From positions 28,034,350 through 28,098,349 of the forward strand of contig NC_091219.1 in the NCBI RefSeq assembly GCF_040958095.1: 64,000 nt of DNA, read 5' to 3'. Under the pieces are notes generated by a model. That model was not told the DNA's origin and ran no database searches. It worked only from the letters and a program-made list of their open reading frames with translations. Shown piece by piece: positions 48,563 to 64,000 of this stretch. Numbering within the stretch: position 1 is the stretch's first letter; each line of letters starts with the position of its first letter. The translations under genes and the position numbers were made by a program. The stretch comes from Procambarus clarkii (lineage: Eukaryota; Arthropoda; Malacostraca; Decapoda; Cambaridae).

Positions 48563-48570
48563 TGACGTCA
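48563..48570. promoter_or_regulatory. TGACGTCA (CRE/ATF-type palindrome) at the CULT start codon
   Basis: An exact 8-bp cAMP-response-element consensus whose last base is the A of the proposed start codon. Such sites work mostly near transcription starts, so it would suggest a short 5' leader. It could also be chance. Confidence 0.3.
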
Positions 48571-48654
48571 TGTACACAAAGGCGTGGGTACAGGCCGCCG
48601 TGTTGCTTCTTGTATCAGCGGGAAATACTACTGCATCTTCCCACCAAGATACAG
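48570..48654 (+). CDS. CULT gene exon 1: signal peptide
   Basis: The ATG at 48570 starts MYTKAWVQAAVLLLV, a positively charged start and a hydrophobic core followed by small residues, as in a secretion signal. The donor GTGAGC begins at 48655 and the exon ends in phase 1. The start overlaps a TGACGTCA palindrome at 48563-48570. Confidence 0.85.
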
Positions 48655-51600
48655 GTGAGCTTTCTCACACCTGGGTAGGAGGGAAGTGTGGGCGGGGGCA
48701 GGTGTGTGGTGTAGGTGGGGCAGGTGTGAGGACGGGTGTGTGTGTGTACTGGTGGGAGGGGGGAGAGTTAGCGCGCCACAGAGCCATCACTGGGGTCACT
48801 GTATACCAAGCATCCTCCACATGGTTATATCGCTGTAAAAAAGGGCGTTTCTAGCGCTTAATTCACTGGTTAATGACCTGTTTAGATAACAGGTCATTAA
48901 CTCATACGTTTTGTGCTAGAGAAAGAGCATCGGCAAATCAACTGTCCGCACTACACTCCGCTTAACAAAACCTAAGGGCAACGTTACTCGAGTTTACCTA
49001 AACTGTCTTGACGTTACGTTTAACGTTTCAGATTTTGCACATTCTTATGACCTGAGGTACACTGTTAGGTTACAGGCCGTCTATGTGAGAATGCAGAAGC
49101 ACTCTGGCTAGGCTGTTTATGGTCACCTTCACATTTCTTGGCCTTGGAAGTCAAACCAGAGTAGTTATATATCGGCTAAATAATATTGGACTCGTGAGAT
49201 CAGTTTGCAAGAGGGATCTCGGAGGTAAGATTACTGGTGGTATCTAAAATTGAGTAAATAGTGTTTATGTGCTGAAAATAGAGCACATCAACTGGGAATG
49301 CTGGGCCAGCATTCATATAATTCTACATAAATTAAAAAAAAAATTGTGTGCCCCAAAGAAAGGGTTAATGTAGTTTTGTCATATATCATTTCCATAGCAA
49401 TTCATCTAGTAAAATGTATAACTGTTCTTTAGTTCACGTTACAGTGTAACCTCGATTTGAACTATGAGATCAACTTTGATTCGTTGGAGTGAGGGATTTG
49501 TTTCAACTGGAGATGCCTTCAGGAGGCATTTGTGAGACATCTTAAAAACAAAACCTGCAAGAAAAATAAATTTTACCCATTTCATTTTTGTAATGTTTGG
49601 TCCATCCACAAAAATAATAAAAAAATGTGATTAGAGCCATATTAAGAGAGCTATCATTTATACCCTAATATTTCCCATGCTCTGTGGGCTAATTTTATAG
49701 TGAAATTTTAATTTCAACTTATTACAAAATAGACAATTACCAGGAGAACTTGTCTGTAAAGAGAATTCACCAGATCTAGCATATGTCCCAAGCCCCATCC
49801 TCGAAATTTTATTTTCAAAGTAAGACTGTCCCAAATGTAAGTGAACAAAATCTGCAGTAACTTGAAATTTAAATAAACCATAGAATTTGGGTTGAAATAT
49901 GCTCAATGGCTTTCCCAAGGCCCCCAACTGTTTCTTCTAATGTTGCATCATCAATGAAAATCATTAAAAATGTGATTGTAGCCATATTCAGGAAATTGCT
50001 ATTCATGCCTTTATTTTTTATACTGGTGTAATTTCACTAAGCAAAATTTTTATATCAACCTGGGCAACTTTCCTACCAGTCTGGGCCCTGCATCCTAAGC
50101 AAATCTGCATATCATGCACTTTGCCAAACTCTTGTTAGTCAAAGCAGGTGAGTAAATCTGACCTGGAAAGACCAAGAAAGTGTATTTTACAATCAGAAAT
50201 TTGCCAAAATGAGGTTTGTTGAATTGAGGTTTCACCGTATTAACATTAGCTAAATACAACTGGCTTCAGACACCAAAAAACTTATATCCTGTCTTCTATT
50301 ATCATATTTTTTAAGGCAAATATTAAGGATTCAGTTCATTATAAATTATATTGAAAAGGTACATTGTGATTATAATACGATATTATTAGTTGGCATTTTC
50401 AACAGATCACATACTGTGCCGCAAATGTGGAACGGAGTTGACAGAAAACTCGCTGGACAACTTTGTTAATATCACTAGTCCATTATCGGAATCCACTCAT
50501 CAGTTGTCAGTCCTTGGCCACTCTCATTTGATGGTGCAGATGCTTAGAAACCCGGCTGATGTAACATTCAATTTGGTGACTGTGAAAAGATCTGGTTGTT
50601 CTGGCATTGGAGAGGTGAGTATGTTCCAGACAAAGTTCGGTTTACCCATGATTTGGAAATGTCACAACAGTATTAATTATACAGCCGTTAGATACAGATC
50701 TGATGAATAAAGTAGAAAAGGAGAACAGTGTGGAAAACATATTTAAGAGTTTATATTATTGATGACAAAGTAGACTGCCATGAACTAAAAATGCATAATT
50801 TTTTTTAAAATTAGGGATGACATTGATGATGATAAAGAGTGACCTCCTGGTCTTTCTGTTACTGTAATTTAAAACATCCCAACTAACATATTTCAAATAG
50901 TTATTAGGTATTCCCTTACCAAATATTTTTCAGTTTTTGGATGTACAGTACAAAGTTTTTGGTGTCTGTGGGATATCTGGAGAATGCCTTCATGTATTGT
51001 TTTGAAAATACAGTATTAAGCTGTTGAATGATGGAACAAGGAAAGTCTTCAATATTAATAGACCATATAGCCTTCTAGTGAGAGAAAGTTGCAAATTCTT
51101 CATGATTGTAGTAATATGAAGAATTCCACGCATCAGGTCATTTCTTGAAATCCAATTCCAATAATTACCTCTCAATTTTTACATATTGATTGTATAATTA
51201 GATGCAATGCACTCCATAGTCTAAACCTCCATTTAGTGGCTCCTACTTAACACTAGGTCAATCCCTTATTGGATCTCTTCAAAATTTGGGGTTTGGGAAA
51301 ACTCCATATTTTGGAGGGGGGTTGCTATGAAATCCAGAATGTTAAGTCATTTTCAGCAAACTGCTTTATTTTATTTTTGCTTGTGCTTTTGCTATTGTTC
51401 AGTGGAGAACAGAGTTCAAGTAAGAGGTGATCTAAATATTATTCTGAAAAACATTTACACCCAAGCTAATTATTTATTGAACAAGTTTGTAAGACATTTC
51501 TTAGAAAATTTTTAGTTAAAGAATGAGTTTTGGCTATGGGCAAGTCTAGGTTCTTAGTTCTTGTACACTATAAGTTGGTTATGACTGTACTCTTCAAAGA

Positions 51601-54600
51601 TAAGGTTTCTGGGTAGGAATGTCTAGAACATGGGAAATACTGGCAATGATGGTGAACTCTCTATAGCCAGATTCTCTTGGTAGATAGCTATCTTAAGAAA
51701 GATTTAGATTGTTTTACTTAGTAAAATTTACCCCATGGAGAATAGGAAAAATTAGGGTAACTTTTAATATTGCTTGTGTTGTATTTTTAGTGATTCATGT
51801 ACAGTAGGTGGGTACAACATTAGGAGAAACAACTCTTTCCATAGGAAATCTATTAAGAATATTGAAAATAAAATATTGTGGTGATCCACTCGAGAGGATG
51901 GTTTAATAAAACAGGATCAGTGACTACTATTATTACAGTTTATAGATCAGGTTACAGATTTGGGATGCGATATTGGGAAGGAATGTTACCCACTCATTTG
52001 GACGGTTTGGGGATTGAATGCCGACCTGCATTAAGCGAGGCTGTTGTTCTATCATCCAGCAAAAGTGGTTGGATTTGGGATGAGAGTGAGGACTAGCCAG
52101 TTGGCCTGGGGTGGCCTGCATAGTGGTGGATGGGGGAGCAGGTGGGATTGCTTGTTTAGTATAGTAATTTTCAGTTTGTTGTTGGCACTTAAACAAAACA
52201 TTTGATGACATAGGGAGTTTGGGCATCTTATGGCTTTTCATTGTGTTTTGGCCATTGTTCTTTGGTTAGTAGTTTGGTAAGTAGGTAGCCTGGTATTGAG
52301 TTAATCATGATCCGTGTGTTCCCATGCCTCATAAAGGATGCAAGGGAAAATTTGTAGGAATTTTGTCACTGGTGGGCAAAAATAGCTTGAGTTTGGTATG
52401 GTGACAGGTAAGAGCCAGTGGATTTAGCATGGGGAGCTACTGAAGCAGTACCCAGAATGAGGTGTTTCATTATGCTTAATGCACTACATTTGTTTATTGA
52501 CACACTTGTAAAGAGTGGGTTTTTTCTTACTAGAAATATAATATGAATGTGAGTACAGTATTTAATATTGGTTTTTTAGTTCCCATTTAAACCAAGAAAG
52601 GAACTATGCCAAAATCAGAGTGCTGGAATGAAAGGTTAAAACATGCAACGAGACCAGTCTGGTACCAAAAGTTCTTGTGGTACCGGTAAGTAACAAATGT
52701 ATTTTTAAACTAAAAGGATGAAAACAGTGTAGATGCTTTCAGTGCATTGGTGTCATATACATAACATTTCCAAAATTCACTGAACAATTCCCTCCAAAAA
52801 ATAATAGATTTCTGGAAGAGAATAAACAAAATTCTGAATATTTTGTCCCATTTTAAAAATCTGCAAATAAAATCCTTGCTCTTACTTTTAACATAATTGG
52901 AAGTTAATGTTATTTACAATAATATTTAGTTGGCATTAACCCTTATACGGCTCCAATTGTTATTTACAATTACCTTGTGTGCTCGAATCACCATATGCAA
53001 TTTTTTTGTACACTAGTTTTGTGAACTATTTTTTGTCATTCTCATCCTGATGTAGGACTTTTAATTGGCTGAGCTGTTTAAGGGTTAATGACAAGCAGGG
53101 CAGCATTAGGAAGATAGGTAACCACACTATGCTTTTGGTGAGGTCTTGTGTTCTGTTGCAGTGGTACAGTGATCATACCTGGTTTCCTGGCTACTTGTGG
53201 AAGGTGTGCATCTGCCCCCGCTGCCAGGCACACCTAGGCTGGTGAGGATGACCTTATCTGCCTATATGTGTTGGCCAGTCAGCTGTGTGCATGTGTTGGT
53301 TTGTGTTAAACAGTCAGCTGTGTTTGTGTGTAATTACCTAAGTGTAGTTACAGGATGAGAGCTACGCTCGTGGTGTCCCGTCTTCCCAGTACTCTGTCAT
53401 ATAACGCTTTGAAACTACTGACGGTTTTGACCTCCACTACCTTCTCACTAAACTTGTTGCAATCGTCTATCATTCTGCAAAAGAAAACTGTCTAATATTT
53501 TTTGGCATCTTTGTTTCCTTAGCTTGAATCTGTGTATTCTTGTTCTTGAAGTTGCTGGTTTCAGGAATTCCTCTGTCAATTTGGTAGATTCCTGTTATTG
53601 TTTTGTAAGTGGTGATCTTTTTCTTCTACCTTCTAGCTTTGGCTTCTAGCTTTGGCATATTTAATGCCTCTAGCCTCTCCTCTTAATTCTTGTTTTTCAG
53701 TTCTGGAAACCATTTTGTAGCATGCCTTTGTACCTTTTCCAGTTTATTGTTGTGCTTCTTGAGATATAGGCACCATACAACTGCTGCATATTGCAATTTT
53801 GATCTCACAAAAGTCATGAACAGTTTCTTTATTATTTCACCATCCATGAAATTAAAAGGGATTCTAAAGTTGGAAAGTGACGCACATGCTCCTCGCTTTT
53901 TCAGGAACTTGTTCCCCTCTTCCTTTTGTCCTCTACTCCCTCGACCTCTAATGATTTTTTTTTGTTATATACCATTTCACAGACCCCTAGCACCTTGTAG
54001 AAAAATTAATTTCTTTTTTCTTTATTTCTATTCCCATTTTGACATTTTGTCTTATTGAGGTTAGCTTTCTTTAGCTTACCTTCAGCTTTTCTGTCTTCCC
54101 TCGAGAGATCTCGTCTTAATGAAAAAAGTTTTCCATCCTCATCACTTTGCAATTTCCTGGCATTCCTAAGCACTTCTATCATTTGAATGGTCTATATGGT
54201 CTATCATTTGTCTATCTATATGGTATATAATGGTCTATATGGTCTATCATGGTCTATCATATATGGTCTATCATTTGTTTTACTCCATTAAATGTCACCC
54301 TTAATGGTCAAGATTTTTATCTTTTTTTTTTTTATTTCTGCCTATCCTAAAATCATTGATATTTTCCTTTGATGTGAGGCCTACTATTTTGTAGGCCTAA
54401 ACCTACTATTTTCTCAATGATTTTTATCTCTGCTGCTCTGTCCGCCCCAGATATTATGTTCTTTTCCATCCACCCAAAAATAATTATGGGCTTACTTCTA
54501 TCTACAGTGTTTTGTACTGATATACTGCTTGTGACAAACTCCTTCCTAATTGCTTGCCTAATATTGGATTCTTGCTGCTCATCCCTATTCTTAACTTCCA

Positions 54601-56992
54601 AACATATTTCTTTAATTGTTTCTTTTTCTTTTACAACTTGTGCATTTGTTTCTTTCATATCTTCTTTGAGCAATCCCTGAGTAACATCCTGGGCTTGATG
54701 TTTTCGTGAAGTGTCCCTAAGGCTGCCGTTGCTTAATTCTATATTGTTTCTAACCTGTAGGGATTCTCTCATGAGTTCCTCACCACATGTATCAATTTTT
54801 ATCATAGTGCCAGTGCTTCCTGTGCCTCTTTTTGAGGGGGGGGCCACATTCTGGCTCCTGGTCTCTGGTAGGCCTAAAGAATTCCACAACTGATGGCACG
54901 TAGTAGCTTCGCACACCAATAGTAGCTCCATAGAGCCACTGAGGCTTACCCAGAAATTGACATTTAATTACATTCAACACTGGGGGGGCATCATATAATA
55001 TATATTATAATAGCAGGGTCATATAATGACCCTGGATGGGCCTCCAGGATCAATACCATCTCATCAAGTGTCTTAGACTGTCATTGACCTACCAGAGACA
55101 AGAATCAGAATCAGAATCTGAGGCAAAGGAGCCGAGCATGTCTGAGACACCAGCAAGTCCAAGACACATGCTGGTGTCTGGAATAATAGGCTTTGGATTT
55201 TTTCCTTCAATGTGGTTTTATAATTTTCTAGAATTGAGTAATAAAAGAACATGAATTAAAGACAAAACCTTTCAAACAAGAAATGTAACAGGAATTTCTT
55301 TGTAATCTATGGAATTAAAACTCACACGGGCTTGCATACTTTGCAAGCTTTTGATTGGCCTTTGTCTTCTCCCAATCTGTATACCAAACCTTTGAAATAT
55401 ATTCATTAACTCAACATGTTGAGTAAGCCATCACTATTCTTGTTAAAGGACTACTTGGCAGGTACTGTACTGTGACAAATGTATTCATTTTCCCAAACAC
55501 TAACCCTGATGCCAAGTTTTTTGTTGGTATCCTTGCTTTGTGGCATTGCTAAGCTGAATCAGTAATGGCAAGCTGTTTTGGGAGATCTGCTTTGTGGCAT
55601 GCTAAGCTAAATCAGTAATGGCAAGCTATTTTGGCAATGTACCTCTGCTTGGCAATACTAAACTGACTCGGTAATAGTAAGCTATTTTTATGATTACTTT
55701 TGTTTTATGGCAATTTTCTAGTGAATCAGTCATGTGCCAAGATTAGTGCAGCTATTACTTCGCATATTTCTTTTACCAATTCTTTTTCCTTTTTCTTTTT
55801 TTTCTAGGATTTTTGAGCCAGTTGGAAAAGCCAGTATCAGCCATTTCAAAGCTTCATCAGAAGGCTTTTATGGGCTTATTCTTGAAAAACTGATTACTGA
55901 AGAATGTAAGTACTGTACTGTACTGTACTGCATAGTAATAAATAATAATCTTGTTGTGAAGAATGTTAGTAATAAGTTAGTAGCAAGTTGGTCGAGAATG
56001 CAAGTAGCATTAGTTAATGTGCTTTTAACAAGCCCGTCGCTTCCTCACTTCGTATATATACATACACCATATAAAGAATAGAAGTGGTAGGAGAAGAGAG
56101 ATCTGGTCAACCAGAGAGATCTGGTTGATCAGATCACGATCAGGAGGCCTGATGAGAGACCAGGCTGTGGGGGCACTAATACCCAGAACCACAAGGGAAG
56201 GTGCATACAACAGGTCCACCTTCCCACTGAGTTGGACCTGATCACATAGCAGAGCATGCTCCACTTTGGGTGCAGGAACACCATAATCCAAGCATAAATG
56301 AGGAAATGGAGACTAGAGAGATAATTTAAACATGGGAAATACTTGAAGGCTAAGTCTCTACTGTGCACAATAAAATAACTCCTTGTTGGAGTGAAATATG
56401 GTGGAAAATGCAGCATAAGCTCAGTCTGAGCAATGTTTCAACTTCAGAGACTCATGGTTATTCAACCTTCATCAGAAAATACAAGAAATATTTCTGGACG
56501 AAGGCTTTTCCCTTCAACAGGGAGCTAGACTGGTTTCTGCAGGAAGTTTGTGATCAGCCTGGTTGTGGTTCCTATTGGGCCTGTAGGCTGCTAACAGGAG
56601 TAGCTGTAGTGATCATCATCTGCAGGAAAACCTGCCCTTGGATCAAGCTACATGATTAGAATTTGTAAACCAGATTAGTATATCTTTTTGGTTTACCTGA
56701 CTCCCTGTCTTGTTTAGGAATAGATGATACTTTCTTCAGTTGGTTATGCTAGAAAAATATATATTTTTAGTGTAGTAGTTCAATGTACACATGATGGTCT
56801 ACATAAATCTGTTCTTATGTACATGGTGAAAGAGGGACCTTTTGCTGGGGCATAGAGGGAGTGGAAGGGAGGGGAGGTTGGGGCTTATTTACAATTATTC
56901 AGAACATTGTTTTTATCATAATCAAACTATTTTTATTTTTTCCAGTCTCGGATTCTCTTCTTGTTGGTTTACCTAAGCATCACAAATATTAA
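48570..56992 (+). CDS. secreted CULT-domain (cereblon-type) protein, five exons, complete
   Basis: Exons 48570-48654, 50406-50614, 53162-53241, 55808-55905 and 56946-56992 join with consistent phases (1,0,2,1) into 172 residues ending in TAA. Residues 1 to about 23 form a signal peptide (hydrophobic AAVLLLVSA), so the product should be secreted. The rest is a CULT domain, the beta-tent fold of cereblon's ligand-binding region. Zinc-binding pairs are CRKC (C33, C36) and CPRC (C116, C119). The pocket is HTWFPGYLW then HLGWIF, giving W105, W111 and W125 plus H103 and F127, all equivalent to the human cereblon pocket residues. There are no Lon-like or DDB1-binding segments, so it is not cereblon itself; stand-alone secreted CULT proteins are an established but functionally unknown class. 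The C terminus reads EKLITEEFSDSLLV and then LPKHHKY. The stop codon lies four bases before the ATG of the next gene, in the same exon. Confidence 0.9.
48869..48901. promoter_or_regulatory. perfect 14-bp inverted repeat with TGACCT/AGGTCA half-sites
   Basis: GTTAATGACCTGTT - TAGAT - AACAGGTCATTAAC, in the first intron of the CULT gene. Each arm holds the nuclear-receptor half-site AGGTCA. Its regulatory role is a guess from motif and position. Confidence 0.45.
50406..50614 (+). CDS. CULT gene exon 2: first zinc-binding pair
   Basis: It encodes residues 29-98, starting DHILCRKCGTEL, with the first CxxC of the zinc site, a potential N-glycosylation site (NIT) and a beta-rich segment ending SGCSGIGE. 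The acceptor is TTTTCAACAG and the donor GTGAGT. The open frame runs on into the intron, so the apparent ORF is longer than the exon. Confidence 0.88.
51950..52105 (-). repeat. tRNA-like SINE (family of 12858)
   Basis: On the minus strand it reads AACAACAGCCTCGCTTAATG, then CAGGTCGGCATTCAATCCCC (B box) and a GTCCAAATGAGTGGGTAACA body. It is more diverged than the 12858 copy. Confidence 0.7.
53162..53241 (+). CDS. CULT gene exon 3: ligand-pocket core
   Basis: Only 80 bases, encoding WYSDHTWFPGYLWKVCICPR and then CQAHLG, plus two bases of the W125 codon. It holds two pocket tryptophans and the second zinc CxxC. The equivalent stretch of human cereblon reads EHSWFPGYAW and SHIGW. The acceptor is CTGTTGCAG and the donor GTGAGG. 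Confidence 0.93.
53330..54980 (-). mobile_element. LINE fragment with ORF1 (CR1-like), in CULT intron 3
   Basis: On the minus strand 54931-54353 is an open frame of about 190 codons with a glutamine/glutamate-rich, probably coiled-coil segment, then KPIIIFGWMEKNIISGADRA and EIKIIEKIVGLG. A frameshift near 54350 is followed by ARKLQSDEDGKLFSLRRDLS and REDRKAEGKLKKANLNK near 54,190-54,060. This order resembles the ORF1 nucleic-acid-binding protein of CR1-like elements. The 53,330-53,680 part reads as another LINE-derived dispersed repeat. Confidence 0.7.
54183..54275. repeat. short tandem repeat (GGTCTATATGGTCTATCAT)
   Basis: Irregular units of ATATGGTCTATCATTTG inserted within the LINE fragment. 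Confidence 0.8.
55808..55905 (+). CDS. CULT gene exon 4
   Basis: It completes the third pocket tryptophan codon and continues IFEPVGKASISHF, then GFYGLILEKLITEE. The FYGL segment corresponds to FWGL of cereblon. The acceptor is TTTTCTAG and the donor GTAAGT at 55906; phase 1 exit. Confidence 0.88.
56105..56205 (+). repeat. SINE tail fragment, family 1 type
   Basis: TGGTTGATCAGATCACGATC, then AGGAGGCCTGATGAGAGACC, a diverged form of the 15935 copy. It lies in the last CULT intron. Confidence 0.65.
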
Positions 56993-57122
56993 GAAAATGG
57001 CAGCTGAAGTTAGTGAGAATGGTTCTGCAAATGGTATGGTAGAACTGGATGAAAAATACCTCGCTCAGCTTGAAGAAGAGTTTGTAGATCGCTATACAGA
57101 AGATGATAAAGGCTTCATGGAG
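56946..57122 (+). CDS. shared exon: CULT C terminus and RAM start
   Basis: The acceptor TTTTTTCCAG precedes 56946 and the donor GTATGC begins at 57123. Entering in phase 1 from CULT exon 4 it reads FSDSLLVGLPKHHKY and stops at 56990-56992. Four bases later (GAAA) the ATG at 56997 opens a different frame that runs through the rest of the exon (42 codons) into the RAM-like protein. The start context AAGAAAATGG has A at -3 and G at +4. Confidence 0.85.
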
Positions 57123-60100
57123 GTATGCAAATAATACTGGAATAAGAATACTCCCCCCCCCCCTTTCCCAAAAAAATGTTGGTTATGACTATTACAAACA
57201 TTCATTGTACATTTAAGACTGTTAAAGAGGGTGGTTGTATACCTGGAGAAGGTTTTGAGAGTTCTGTTCCCTGAGCTGGTCTCTGGCCAGGTTTAGGTTC
57301 CTCTTGTTCCTTACTCGGTCAGCTTCCAAGCCTTAGACTTGGCCGACTGTCTCTTCTTCATTCCGATTTCTGCAGTACTCTCCTCCTCCCTGGTAAGTGC
57401 CCATTTGTTCCTTCTCCATGGGTAGTAAGCATCAGGGAGCCATAAAGGGTTCCCTCCAAAAAGCCAGCATTCAGTGTAATGAAATGCCAATTTTTTGGTG
57501 AGTTCTGGTGACTCCCTGACATCTTCCCTCCCACAGAGAGTCGGGTAGCTTCATCATTCTTCAAATTAATGTTGGAGTGGCCTGTGAGCTGTGGCCTGGC
57601 CCCCCTCCTTTCCCCAAATGAGGGGGAGGGTAGCATGAACAAGGGAATGTTAGTTTTATGACATTTTTTATTATTTGTTTACATAGTTTGGGGCATTTTA
57701 TGATAGTTTTTGAGTATACAATCCTTGAAGATGACCAGTTGGGATTTATTGTGACTCGCTGACTTTCGGGGTGCCTTTCTAGGTGGTTGCATAAATTAAT
57801 AACTTAATATATAAGTGGCAAGGCTCCCTGCACTTTTCCTCTTCTTGATGGTATGTGCAGTTTGCATGAAGGGTTTATCCTCCCAATGACTGCAAGAGTA
57901 CAAATGTTGGGAGACGCATTAATGTTGAGAATTACAAGGTTTCAAGTGTTTGTATTGTGTTGTAGATAGAGGAGCGGTGACTAAACAGAGGTGTGTGTTA
58001 GAGGGAGACTTGCCGCATTGTCGGGCGGGAGGTTATGTTTATGGCGTCAGCTGATCGTTGGTGCTCGTGCGACGAGGCAGTTTTTTCTGTGTTTGGCTGC
58101 TGGTTGTGCTAGGTATAAATGTGACACAGTTCAAATGTGGCCCAATTTGTTGGTCGACTGGAGATATTTAGCCAGTGCTTTGACAATTTGATACTTTTCA
58201 TAAAACAAGAGATTATCTCCTAATATATGCTCGATGGTAAAAAATTATTTTAAGTGCGATAAGTACTATTGAGCCTGGCCTCGGGCCTGGCTCAGGGAGT
58301 AAATTAACACCTAGAACCCTCTACAGGTATGCTCCAGGTATACTATTTTGAAGTTTACTCTGGCACTATGATGTCAAACAGTGAAAGAGATAGTGTTTCA
58401 GGCACATGACAGTGTATGCAGAGTTTGTTGATGTCTGTTCTGTATTTAGAGCCGTGTGCTGCCAGTTTGATGTGTCCCAGCCTTAATCTGGTCATCGTTA
58501 CATCAATTTCTCTGTCTTATATCTGACATGTTTCCAAGTTTCCCATTTCTTTTTTATGGACCCATAGTACAAAGATGAGCATGACATTTTCCATTTCATT
58601 ACAAAATTTTGGGTGATGGTATCTTTGAAGGCTCCTTTACGTGCAACATGAGGAATTGGATGATGGATAATGTAAGGCGTATTATGCATCGCTTTGGCCA
58701 GTTGATCTACAAGTTTATTATGGAGTATACCATAATGCATTGGGACCCATTGGATAGAGATGCAATAGCCATTCAATTGATGTTCATGAAGTTGAAGGCA
58801 TGGGTAAACAAACTCTTTGCACGTTGTGGAAGAGTACATAATTGCTTGAATCACACTCTAGGAATCATTACACATTGTATATATCCCAACTGGTTTTGTT
58901 ATGATTACTTGGAGAGCTTGGTAAAAGACATACAATTTAGCTGTGAAAATAGATAGTTTGGTAACCGCCATACCTGCTTGAGATGGTATTGCGAAATCCA
59001 TACTGCACTAGTGACCTCACTGTAGTGCGTTGTTCATGGGCAATGCACTGGGTGCATTGTTCATGAGGATGCGAGATCCACCCTGCACTTCTGGTGAGGG
59101 GACCTGGTTCTTCGGGCTCTAGGTCCTTGGTAGACCAGAGTACAGTACTTCTTCACCGATGGCACCTACATCGGAGATGGTAACTTGAGGAAACCAGCCG
59201 GACTCATCCAGAAATTGGCATTTCATTACATTTAATGCTAGCTTTTTTAATGTCAGAATAATAGAACTGGATGGTTTGTGTGTTTTCAGGTTCTATAGAT
59301 CCTTAAATTTCATGTGTGACAAAATAAAGGGCACAGACCTTTTGTTGACTATTGGCAAAAGCTCCATATTCATGTAGAGAAAATGTAAGAATGCCTGATT
59401 GAAATATGAGTGAGTTTTTGATCATCAGATCATGTGTTAACACCAGTAGTTAACCTTATTTCCCTTATTGCATGATACATAGTATGTACGTATGATACTA
59501 TATGATACTATATGTGATACATACATATAGAGTAATGTACTGGCACAGTTCCAAGTATATACAAGTATCCTTGGAACAAAAATGTGTATCAAATGTAACT
59601 ATGTAATTTTCATTTCAATTACTGGACTTACATAGTGTATACTTGTTTCTTTGTATTGTCTAAACATTTTCTTGCGTCAGTTATGCCGCCTGTTGAATAT
59701 GAACCAAATGTTTTAAAATAATTATGTCTTGAGAAATATGTTAATTTTGTTATTTTATTTAAAGGGCAAGATCTAGTTTATTTATAAGAGAGATTAGTAT
59801 ATCTGTTAGTAATTTATATAATGTAAATTTTTAATTACATATGTGCATCAATATTCATTTACGAAATTTCTATTTCAGTACTACAGTAAACCAATGCCAG
59901 ATCCACCAATTCTGCCAGCAGAGAGGAGTGAACGCAGCAAGTATCGTGCAAGTTTACGAGGCAGAAACAGAGGCGGTGGCTACCAGGGTGACAGACGAGG
60001 AGGCTACCAGGGTGACAGACGTGGAGGCTATGGTTATGACAACAGATCAAACTATAGGGGTAATACCAGGGAGTATGGTGGGTATGGAGATAAGAGGGAC

Positions 60101-62410
60101 TATGGAGGTTTTAAGCGAGATTATGATGGTTCTAGGAAGGACACTAGCAATGATATGAGGGGTTATGAGGGTGATAGGAGGGGACTCTTGTCAACACCAG
60201 GTGGTGATAGAAGGGGACTTCTATCACCACCAGGTGGTGATAGAAGGGGACTTCTGTCGTCTCCAGAAGGTGTTGACAGACGTGGACTCTTGGCAGCACC
60301 AGTTGGTGGCGGCGATAAACGGGGACTTCTCTCACCACCAGATGGTGGTGGTGGTGATAGGAGAGGACTTTTAGCCCCACCAGATGGTGGTGGTGATAGA
60401 AGAGGGCTTCTCTCACCAATGGACAGTGGTAGAAGGGGACTTTTAGCACCACCAGATGGTGGTGATAGAAGAAGTCTTCTAACTCCACAGGATGGTGGCA
60501 GTGATAGAAGAGGACTTTTAGCACCTCCAGACAGTGACAGACGTGGACTCTTAGCACCACCAGATGGTGGTAATGATAGAAGAGGACTCTTAGCGCCACC
60601 AGATGGTGGCAATGATAGAAGAGGACTTTTGGCACCACCGGACGGTGGCAATGATAGAAGAGGACTTTTGGCACCACCAGATGGTGGCAATGATAGAAGA
60701 GGACTTTTGGCACCTCCAGATGGTGGCAATGATAGAAGAGGACTTTTGGCACCACCAGACGGTGGCAATGATAGAAGAGGACTTTTGGCACCACCAGATG
60801 GTGGCAATGATAGAAGAGGACTTTTAGCACCACCAGATGGTGGTAGTGATAGGAGAGGACTTTTGGCACCACCAGATGGTGGCAATGATAGAAGAGGACT
60901 TTTAGCACCACCAGATGGTGGTAGTGATAGGAGAGGACTTTTGGCACCACCAGATGGTGGTAGTAGAAAGGGACTTCTGCCAGCACCACAAGGTGGTGAC
61001 AGGAGTGGCTTCAGTGGAGACAATAGTGGTTTAGGTGGAGATAGAGGCAGTTTTGGTGGGGATAGAAGCGGTTTTGGTGGAGATAGAAGCAGTTTTGGTG
61101 GGGATAGAAGTGGTTTTGGTGGAGATAGAAGTGGTTTTGGTGGAGATAGAAGTGGTTTTGGTGGAGATAGAAGTGGTTTTGGTGGAGATAGAAGCAGCTT
61201 AGGTGGAGATAGAGGTGGTTTTGGTGGAGATAGAGGTGGTTTTGGTGGGAACAGAGGTGGATTAGGTGGAAATAGAGGTGGATTTGGAGGAGATGGAGGC
61301 AATTTTGTTGGAGACAGAGGTGGTTTTGGTAGAGATGGTGGTTTTGGCGGAGATAAAAGTGGTTTAGGTGGCGATAGAGGCAGTTTTGGTGGAGACAGAC
61401 GTGGTTTGGGTGGGGATGGTAGTTATGGTGGAGATAGAAACAGTTTTGGAGGAGAAAAAAGTGGGTATGGGGGAGACAGGAGTGGTTTAGGTGGTGACAG
61501 GAGTGGTTTAGGTAGTGACAGGAGTGGTTTAGGTGGTGACAGGAGTGGTTTAGGTAGTGACAGGAGTGGTTTAGGTGGTGACAGGAGTGGTTTAGGTGGA
61601 GACAGAAGTGGATTTGGGGGAGATAGGAGTGGATTTGGGGGAGACCGGAGTGGATTTGGTGGAGACAGGAGTGGATTTGCTGGAGACAGGAGTGGATTTG
61701 CTGGAGACAGGAGTGGTTTAGGTGGAGACAGAAGTGGATTTGGAGGAGACAGGAGTGGTTTAGGTGGAGACAGGAGTGGTTTAGGTGGAGACCGGAGTGG
61801 TTTAGGTGGAGACCGGAGTGGTTTAGGTGGAGACAGGAGTGGTTTAGGTGGAGACAGGAGTGGTTTAGGTGGAGACAGAAGTGGATTTGGAGGAGACAGG
61901 AGTGGTTTAGGAGGAGACAGGAGTGGTTTAGGTGGAGACAGAAGTGGTTTAGGTGGAGACAGAAGTGGATTTGGGGGAGACAGGAGTGGATTTGGTGGAG
62001 ACCGGAGTGGATTTGGAGACCGGAGTGGTTTTGGAGGAGACAAAGGGGGTTTTAGTGGAGATAAAGGTTTTGGTGGTGATAAAGTTGGTTTAGGTGGAGA
62101 TAGAAGCAATTTTGCCGGAGATAGAGGTGGTTTTGGTGGAGACAGGAGTGGTTTTGGTGGAGACAGGAGTGGTTTTGGTGGAGATAGAAGTGGTTTTGGA
62201 GATAGAAGTGGTTTTGATGGTGATAGAAGTAGTTTTGGTGGAGACAAAAGTGGTTTTGGTGGTGACAGAAGCAGTTTTGGTAGTGGTGACAGAAGCAGTC
62301 TAGGTGGTGATAGGAGTGGTTACATGGGTGATAGCAATAGGGGTTCAACCCATAATCAGTCAAGTACCTCCTATTATGGGAATAGTAGTGGAAGGGACAG
62401 TGTGTTTTAG
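56997..62410 (+). CDS. RAMAC: giant RAM/RAMAC-like RNMT-activating protein with repeat-expanded tail (885 aa)
   Basis: Exons 56997-57122 and 59879-62410 join in phase 0 to 885 residues. RAM is the activating subunit of the nuclear cap guanine-N7 methyltransferase RNMT. Residues about 23-60 carry the RNMT-binding head: [20 protein letters not shown], then [10 protein letters not shown]. The human protein has [20 protein letters not shown] and then PPESPPIV in the same place. Next comes an R/G/Y/N-rich stretch (residues about 67-120, with GYQGDRRGG repeats), comparable with the N/R-rich RNA-binding part of RAM. Then follow about 22 units of DRRGLL(A/S)PPDGG(N/S), most exactly 39 bp, and about sixty 21-bp units coding GGDRSG(F/L). 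The tail ends in an S/N-rich segment before TAG. Human RAM has about 118 residues, so the tail is a large lineage-specific extension. The identity of the head is strong; whether the full tail is made, and whether it keeps RNMT activation, is inference. Confidence 0.85.
57123..59878 (+). other. RAM intron with LINE and SINE remnants
   Basis: It begins GTATGC and ends TATTTCAG. It contains the GGAGTTCTGTTCCCTGAGC SINE fragment (57236-57300), its inverted relative at 58268-58340, a decayed LINE RNase H segment (58350-59000) and a repeat with TCCAGAAATTGGCATTTCAT shared with 54935-54965 and, inverted, 57468-57490. No further exon was seen. Confidence 0.7.
58350..59000 (-). pseudogene. LINE ORF2 RNase H / C-terminal remnant
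   Basis: On the minus strand: [20 protein letters not shown], then [39 protein letters not shown] and LAKAMHN. This is an RNase H domain (TAExxA, DS, QWVPxHxGIxxNxxAD) with the catalytic aspartates partly lost. It is followed by [20 protein letters not shown] and a CxxC zinc-knuckle remnant ([12 protein letters not shown]). The frames are broken. Confidence 0.82.
59879..62410 (+). CDS. RAMAC: RAM-like exon 2: end of RNMT-binding head plus repeat tail
   Basis: The acceptor TTTCTATTTCAG precedes 59879. The exon continues the head with [20 protein letters not shown] and runs 843 codons without interruption to TAG at 62408-62410. This intactness across more than 2.2 kb of tandem repeat argues that the frame is under selection, although repeat units that are multiples of three would also keep it open. 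Confidence 0.88.
60175..61000 (+). repeat. coding minisatellite, 39-bp unit ([13 protein letters not shown])
   Basis: About 22 units. The first ten differ in length (11-14 codons) and sequence; from about 60540 to 60960 they become near-identical 39-bp copies alternating GGN and GGS ends. This is the pattern expected from recent unequal exchange within an older array. Every unit is a whole number of codons. Confidence 0.9.
61005..62320 (+). repeat. coding minisatellite, 21-bp unit (GGDRSGF/L)
   Basis: About sixty units of GGDRSG followed by F or L, with scattered variants (GGDRGG, AGDRSG, GSDRSG) and a few shortened units (GDRSGFG without the extra GG). Runs of identical units around 61,490-61,960 suggest recent amplification. 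The residue pattern is RG- and aromatic-containing, low-complexity and probably disordered. Confidence 0.9.
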
Positions 62411-62737
62411 TTAACACTTACTAGGTAGTAATAGTGATTGTGCCTCATGCATTAAGGAAGGCTTTGAAGCCGACCAGGCAGGTAATTTTTTAACCTATGG
62501 AAGTTTCTGCCAACATGACTACCACACCCATACTTAGCAAGTTGTAGGGTCCAAGATCAGTTATTGATCTGGTAAGATCACACAAATACAACTAACCCTG
62601 GAAATTCATTCGCACTGGAATACAATCTTATCAATTAGTTTACATCTAGTACTCCAGTTACTGAATCAAGGTATGAAGAAACTGTCAAAAGGGTTCTGCC
62701 TTGCCCAGTAATCAAACCTGGGGTTTCAGTTGCAAAG
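62411..62737 (+). other. presumed 3' UTR of the RAM-like gene
   Basis: Non-coding sequence directly after TAG. No canonical AATAAA polyadenylation signal was seen between the stop and the MITE; an ATTAAA occurs inside the MITE near 62,820. Confidence 0.4.
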
Positions 62738-63002
62738 CAGGGAACAGATTCACGAAGCAGTTACGCAAGTACTTACGAACGTGTATATCTTTCCTCAATC
62801 TGTGATGGCTTTGGTTACATTTATTAAACAGTTTACAAGCATGAAAACTTCCCAATCAACTGCTGTTATTGTTATAAACAGCCTCCTGGTGCTTCAGAGC
62901 TCATTAACTGTTGAATAATTGTAAACAAAGCCACGAAAGATTGAGAAAAGATGCACAGGCTTGTAAGTGCTTGCGTAACTGCTTCGTGAATCTGGCTCCA
63001 GG
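62738..63002. mobile_element. palindromic MITE, copy 3
   Basis: About 265 bp in the same orientation as copy 1: ACAGATTCACGAAGCAGTTA to TAACTGCTTCGTGAATCTGG, with centre AAGCATGAAAACTTCCCAAT. It lies 330 bases after the RAM stop and could therefore be part of its 3' UTR. Confidence 0.85.
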
Positions 63003-63819
63003 TGCGCTGTCTAACACACCTCGGGATTACCAACTACCTGATAAAGAACTATTGGTTAATTATATGTTGTCCGTAACATACATGCTCTTGCATTCGGAGC
63101 AAGGTTACTTGTAAAGAATCTTCCTCAAAAGATTCATGTCTTGTCTCTTGAAGTCTTTTGAGTGTTAACAACTTGGCATTAATGTTTATAATGTTTCCTG
63201 AAGAACTCTGCAAGTTTGGTGACTCAAAGAAAGTCTTACTGTGCCGTATGAAATATAAACAAAAATACAAAAATAAGGGTTGCTTCAGCAGTGATGCATG
63301 GAAAATTTGAAAATTCTCAGTTGACAAAAGGAAGAATATGGTATTTACGAATTGAAACTTCAGAAAATAATGTGTATTTTTGAATGTTTTGTTAGAATAA
63401 GTGGTGCTGCAGTATGAAAGTGAACAGAAAAAGTACCATTATGAGTGAATAAGAGTTTATTTTGCTTTTATGTTTGTGCTTGTGGCCCTCTTGAGTGACC
63501 AAGGCCACATGACTGTACTCCATGGGTACTGGTGTAACACAGCAGAAAATCTCATACTAGATAATGCTAGCTACTCAAACAGGGTTTTTATCATTTTTAT
63601 GCATGAAAAACATGATGATGCTGTATATACCAGAAGATATTAGGACACTGTATATACCAAGACATTAGGATGCTCTAGGTTCAGACAAACGTTTAAGTAC
63701 AATACTACCAGTATGTTTGGTCTAAGTGGCCCAAGATGTTGCAATAGCAGAAGGGTGGTTTGTAACACTTCATTATAGATAAATAACCCAATGCACACAC
63801 ACACACACACATGGAAAGA
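63003..63819. other. AT-rich stretch, nothing recognised
   Basis: Short frames only, without domains. It contains imperfect duplicates of CTGTATATACCAGAAGATATT near 63,620-63,670. Confidence 0.5.
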
Positions 63820-63965
63820 AAGGAATGCGATGATGTTGCAGTCCGTGCTAAGCCATGGAGCCTGTTTTGACTTGAAGGAGGTCCAAGACGGGCCAAAGTG
63901 TCATCATATTCCTCTCCCGTGCGTGTGGGTTGGGTTACTTTCAGGCATGTTATTGTGACATTCTC
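63820..63965 (+). repeat. diverged GGTCCAGGACGGACC-type repeat
   Basis: GGAGGTCCAAGACGGGCCAA, then AGTGTCATCATATTCCTCTC and TTACTTTCAGGCATGTTATT: the same layout as 24822-24945, preceded by a (CA)n run. Confidence 0.65.
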
Positions 63966-64000
63966 TGCATTTTGCATAATTTTTACATATTTATTTTTAT

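Follow-up and report, generated by a model that had tools for sequence, protein, structure and literature searches.

A CULT gene and a RAM gene appear to share an exon in the crayfish Procambarus clarkii

Two functionally unrelated genes, one for a predicted secreted CULT protein and one for the mRNA-capping cofactor RAM, appear to overlap by one exon and to lie in one transcription unit within a 64,000-base stretch of the Procambarus clarkii genome (hereafter the window). With middling confidence, we favor a mixed model of this unit, in which dicistronic mRNAs coexist with mRNAs that carry an alternative 5′ exon.

Results

The CULT gene reads as five coding exons (48570-56992) that GT-AG introns join into a clean 172-aa frame, ending at a TAA stop (56990-56992). 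The donor of CULT exon 4 lies after 55905 (phase 1), the acceptor that it meets ends at 56945, and the exon that follows carries both the end of CULT and the start of RAM. The RAM ATG (56997-56999) opens a frame that leaves this exon by a donor after 57122, resumes in exon 2 from 59879 and totals 885 aa. An earlier note, made from the letters of the DNA, had described this shared exon, in which the CULT stop, GAAA and the RAM ATG follow one another, and its coordinates hold. We also recovered its four-base gap between stop and start (56993-56996), its strong context for the RAM ATG (aagaaaATGG) and its leader of 51 bases between acceptor and RAM ATG. The features are as follows.

48570..48654, + strand: CULT exon 1; ATG and hydrophobic N-terminus, likely a signal peptide; GT-AG join, open frame; one genome match
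50406..50614, + strand: CULT exon 2; first CxxC, C33-C36; one genome match
53162..53241, + strand: CULT exon 3; W99, W105, W111 and second CxxC, C116-C119; W125 codon split across the exon end
55808..55905, + strand: CULT exon 4; ends in phase 1
56946..57122, + strand: shared exon; CULT tail and stop, 4-base spacer, RAM start
56946..56992, + strand: CULT C-terminal tail FSDSLLVGLPKHHKY and stop TAA; first codon completed by exon 4; equal-length tail in seven relatives
56993..56996, + strand: GAAA spacer from CULT stop to RAM ATG
56997..57122, + strand: RAM coding exon 1, residues 1-42; Pfam RAM match (residues 25-58) crosses the splice to exon 2
59323..59328, + strand: AATAAA in the RAM intron; candidate intronic 3′ end for CULT, motif only
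59879..62410, + strand: RAM coding exon 2; remainder of activation region, R/G-rich and tandem-repeat extension, stop codon
62823..62828, + strand: ATTAAA past the RAM stop; sole AATAAA/ATTAAA there within the window, motif only

Is the splice from 55905 to 56946 real? When AG sites were scored with a generic splice matrix, the acceptor at 56946 ranked 4th of 1333 in 44-63 kb and first within 55906-57000; the acceptor of RAM exon 2 is weaker (119th of 1333 in the same scoring). The 15-residue CULT tail encoded by the shared exon recurs at equal length in seven of the 16 relatives found, with 7 to 13 of its 15 residues identical to the window and F, S, S, L, P and K invariant. The carriers are records of Homarus, Scylla, Penaeus indicus, Macrobrachium and Palaemon, together with two proteins from short contigs that, judged by size and uninterrupted frames, look transcript-derived. 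The nine relatives outside this count comprise six that lack the C-terminus or stop early (P0010-P0014, with no C-terminal part, and P0009, which stops after FS), two distant ones that end earlier (P0015 and P0016) and a Cherax protein with another tail (P0002). Since seven relatives carry the tail, we take the splice to be very probably genuine and the open frame across the join to be no product of chance. Provided that the intron position is conserved, the distance from acceptor to CULT stop has also been maintained.

The four-base gap alone is mildly unusual, since the first CULT-frame stop fell at most 4 bases from the ATG in 4.3% of 100,000 mononucleotide-shuffled leaders. Both this figure and the different end of the Cherax CULT record could be read as signs that the join is a coincidence of frame, an accident of annotation with CULT ending elsewhere. 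Against this, the tail is kept in sequence and in length in seven relatives, which brings that reading close to refutation, and we give it hardly any credence. The earlier note had allowed that CULT might end elsewhere; the tail-bearing isoform is conserved, although the Cherax record suggests a possible second end by exon skipping.

Both gene identities proposed in that note were borne out. The CULT protein aligned to cereblon chains with E-values down to 1.7e-9 (printed alignments spanning residues 77-132) and also to structures of 4V2Y, a bacterial CULT protein (PMC4287342). All three cage tryptophans (W105, W111 and W125) are present, as are two CxxC zinc motifs (C33-C36 and C116-C119). 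The N-terminus, encoded by exon 1, reaches an 11-residue hydropathy of 2.28 within residues 5-17, and this hydrophobic leader is a likely signal peptide. Against Pfam, the CULT protein scored above the cut-off of no family and gave no LON row. Its nearest relatives were found in Cherax quadricarinatus (83% identity over 91% coverage), Homarus americanus (77% over 100%) and Scylla (76% over 94%). Like the secreted animal CULT proteins as PMC4287342 describes them, it combines a CULT domain with an N-terminal hydrophobic leader, three tryptophans and two CxxC motifs; in contrast to them, its gene overlaps RAM and its conserved 15-residue C-terminal tail lies on the RAM start exon.

The search for CULT relatives also returned three Scylla records (P0012, P0013 and P0014) in which a sequence like CULT exon 2 is fused to GTP-binding protein 10 and other models, which suggests stray copies of this exon or mis-joined models. 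Two short proteins, P0015 (138 aa) and P0016 (129 aa), are similar to the CULT core but have neither leader nor tail; they are possibly prokaryotic CULT proteins.

On the RAM side, residues 25-58 matched the Pfam RAM family (PF15320, 37.9 bits against a cut-off of 25, E 2.6e-9) across the 57122/59879 splice, and residues 22-55 matched a solved RAM chain (PDB 5e8j_C, E 1.1e-4). After residue 55, where RAM proteins have an Asn/Arg-rich RNA-binding region, this protein is R/G-rich with repeats rather than N/R-rich, and 59967-62281 holds in-frame repeats, about 18 copies of a 39-base unit and about 60 of a 21-base unit (GDRSGFG-like). It thereby shares the N-terminal activation region with the RAM (FAM103A1, RAMAC) of PMC3235549, whereas it is 885 aa long with extended repeats, compared with 118 aa for the human protein (PMC3235549), and begins on an exon shared with CULT. 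That paper, of 2011, reported RAM orthologues in vertebrates only (PMC3235549); a Pfam-level match in a crustacean goes beyond this statement, as later databases may already do.

How many RAM genes does the crayfish have? In the 4.03-Gb source assembly, where the window occupies C70:28034350-28098349, the RAM N-terminus found just the two window exons (E <= 0.001), and the Pfam RAM model, with 16 candidates scored, matched the shared exon and nowhere else at E <= 0.1. A spliced CULT-RAM query gave six candidates and six matches, each a window exon at one place apiece, and no retrocopy of the spliced message was seen in the assembly, RAM exon 2 being queried by its first 119 bases. As the shared exon is the only RAM-family match in the genome, any RAM protein must be made from an exon that encodes CULT in its first 47 bases, insofar as assembly and searches are complete. 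The domain of the RAM partner RNMT (PF03291) is present as four stretches, each at two places on one contig (C91). These stretches (L009-L016) lie near 0.17-0.21 Mb and 14.12-14.15 Mb in opposite orientation and with identical scores, as an inverted duplication or an assembly fold-back would leave them. A protein search with RAM residues 1-78 covered 5 and 21 candidates of about 165-525 and 487-1550 residues, lengths that exclude shorter relatives such as a human-sized RAM, and none reached E <= 1; on viral contigs, three stretches matched a pattern and none was a relative. Automatic annotation that misses RAM where one transcript carries two frames may account for the lack of RAM relatives within these lengths, among other possible reasons.

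The Cherax CULT record ends LITEE-SPQKTTTKPTNYASRER, unlike the window tail. When we joined window CULT exon 4, in phase 1, to RAM exon 2, the product was identical to this Cherax tail at 9 of 18 positions, the final stop included. None of 5000 shuffles reached 9 identities (maximum 7), and the best-scoring place for the Cherax tail on either strand of 55906-64000 was this very junction, the next best scoring 7. The plain tblastn match had an E-value of 0.05, and in a reverse check 10 of 17 window RAM residues were compatible with the Cherax tail, a count that 5 of 5000 shuffles also reached. This one record, its exon structure read from the protein, suggests that the Cherax gene model leaves out the shared exon, with CULT exon 4 running straight into RAM exon 2 in a frame other than that of RAM. 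Because the Cherax tail decodes as this join, RAM would lie downstream of CULT there too, suggesting that the two genes also form one transcription unit in another crayfish. Skipping of the shared exon, if as read in Cherax, would give CULT without RAM.

We then considered signals for transcript starts and ends. Over the 600 bases ahead of the RAM ATG, the CpG observed/expected ratio is 0.09, at the 4th percentile of the window; over the 600 bases ahead of the CULT ATG it is 0.68 (89th percentile), and centered on the CULT ATG it is 0.51 (70th percentile). On this contrast we see no CpG sign of a separate promoter next to the RAM ATG, a weak argument; as evidence for a common upstream promoter it is weak because other stretches of the window have a higher ratio than the CULT start. 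Within the RAM intron, 57950-58549 stands above its surroundings (ratio 0.57, 78th percentile) and may represent a mobile element or regulatory sequence.

In a motif scan from the shared exon to the RAM stop, the AATAAA at 59323 was the single AATAAA/ATTAAA. Two further AATAAA motifs lie in CULT intron 4: one at 56369, past the in-frame stop (56081) that would be met on intron retention, and one at 55937, ahead of any in-frame stop. CULT mRNAs that end before RAM exon 2 would be compatible with the motifs at 56369 and 59323. As to translation, there is no ATG between 56823 and 56997, and the joined CULT sequence contains six ATGs ahead of the RAM ATG, the CULT start and five others counted in any frame. 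The 519-base CULT frame contains no TGGGA, the DNA form of the UGGGA core, and has TGGG at -504 and -82. The CULT stop sits 130 bases before a splice junction; a stop well upstream of a splice junction may invite mRNA decay. An Rfam scan of the window gave 0 matches at gathering scores.

Discussion

How might two proteins be made from such a locus? The earlier note offered reinitiation or coupling on a two-cistron mRNA, an alternative first exon and a spliced leader. In the mixed model, transcription would begin upstream of 48.57 kb, from the CULT promoter, and continue through RAM. CULT mRNAs that include the shared exon would carry the RAM frame as their 3′ part and would be dicistronic. RAM itself, which is probably needed in most cells, would be made mainly from mRNAs in which another upstream 5′ exon is spliced to the acceptor at 56945, so that the leader would consist of that exon and the 51 bases, and reinitiation after CULT would be a minor source. 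In a third form of the mRNA, suggested by the Cherax record, CULT exon 4 would skip the shared exon, join RAM exon 2 and make CULT only. We prefer this mixed model because PMC5972666 describes restarts downstream of long ORFs as presumably very rare and because the annotated dicistronic pairs of Drosophila show all combinations: of 159 such pairs, 45 are exclusively dicistronic, 45 have monocistronic forms of both genes and 69 are mixed (PMC4528330). With so many pairs annotated in a fly, the earlier note's likening of the locus to a bacterial operon was overstated.

Those 45 exclusively dicistronic pairs (PMC4528330) show what a stricter arrangement could look like, with RAM made solely from the CULT-RAM mRNA by coupled termination-reinitiation and RAM output dependent on CULT translation. 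The gap of 4 bases, the strong ATG context, the missing CpG sign of a second promoter and the single RAM match in the genome would all suit it, and coupled reinitiation has been reported on human cellular mRNAs (PMC3923131). Yet the viral UGGGA core is missing from the whole CULT frame, ribosomes would be expected to restart only rarely after as many as 172 codons (PMC5972666), and leaky scanning is an unlikely substitute with six ATGs ahead of the RAM ATG. The position of the CULT stop could also invite decay of such an mRNA unless RAM is translated. On balance, we consider exclusive reinitiation a possible but unlikely source of RAM. An extended form of the same idea makes decapod RAM an obligate second cistron, translated only by ribosomes that have just finished CULT through a reinitiation signal other than UGGGA, with exon skipping of the kind read from the Cherax record as a RAM-off/CULT-on switch. 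This proposal is speculative and we hold it to be doubtful; if it were true, nuclear cap-methylation capacity would be tied to translation of a secreted CULT protein.

Alternatively, no mature mRNA may hold both frames in full, CULT ending at an intronic poly(A) site and RAM having its own first exon or a start in intron 4, so that the two genes would yield overlapping monocistronic mRNAs. A poly(A) site after 59323 would serve for this, as would the AATAAA at 56369 if CULT intron 4 is retained, and the ATG-free interval before the RAM ATG would give a clean leader to a start there. But the Cherax record, as decoded, takes CULT transcription past the RAM intron, at least in that species, the conserved tail argues against retention of intron 4 as the main CULT end, and CpG is depleted just before the RAM ATG; we regard strictly monocistronic mRNAs as rather improbable. 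A spliced leader added in trans at the 56945 acceptor, which would resolve a CULT-RAM operon into separate mRNAs, has a precedent in another malacostracan, the amphipod Parhyale, which uses spliced leaders (PMC5111886). We rate trans-splicing as very unlikely because this acceptor serves a conserved cis splice: CULT uses it for its coding tail, and trans-splicing there would truncate CULT. Moreover, operons and polycistronic mRNAs had, according to PMC7986045, gone unreported in amphipods and copepods, and the Rfam scan of the window matched nothing at gathering scores.

The mixed model places CULT-RAM near systems already described. As in the Drosophila dicistronic pairs (FlyBase; PMC4528330), two frames lie close together on a predicted mRNA, the proteins are dissimilar, as they mostly are in the fly, and alternative monocistronic forms, frequent there, are proposed. 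The fly loci annotated as polycistronic only have stop-start spacings of -34 to 319 nt (PMC4528330). The crayfish pair differs in that it is from a decapod, combines a predicted secreted CULT protein with RAM, has stop and start in one exon and has an mRNA that is predicted from genome sequence. With coupled termination-reinitiation as described in PMC3923131 and PMC5972666 it has in common a stop and a start within a few bases of each other, whereas several of the sites described there overlap (for example UAAUG, UGAUG) and here there is neither overlap nor UGGGA. Dicistronic and exon-sharing gene pairs are already known as a kind, to which CULT-RAM adds a further pair; among the matches listed from the open-licence literature, no title or abstract opening described this one.

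The sole RAM gene found, which encodes a core mRNA-capping cofactor, thus has its start within the exon that completes the coding sequence of an unrelated, predicted secreted protein. On the CULT side, the coding tail is conserved among decapods as far apart as penaeid shrimp and crabs. The locus probably yields two very different proteins by way of overlapping or shared messages. It offers a clean natural test of reinitiation versus alternative first exons in an animal gene that is presumably essential.
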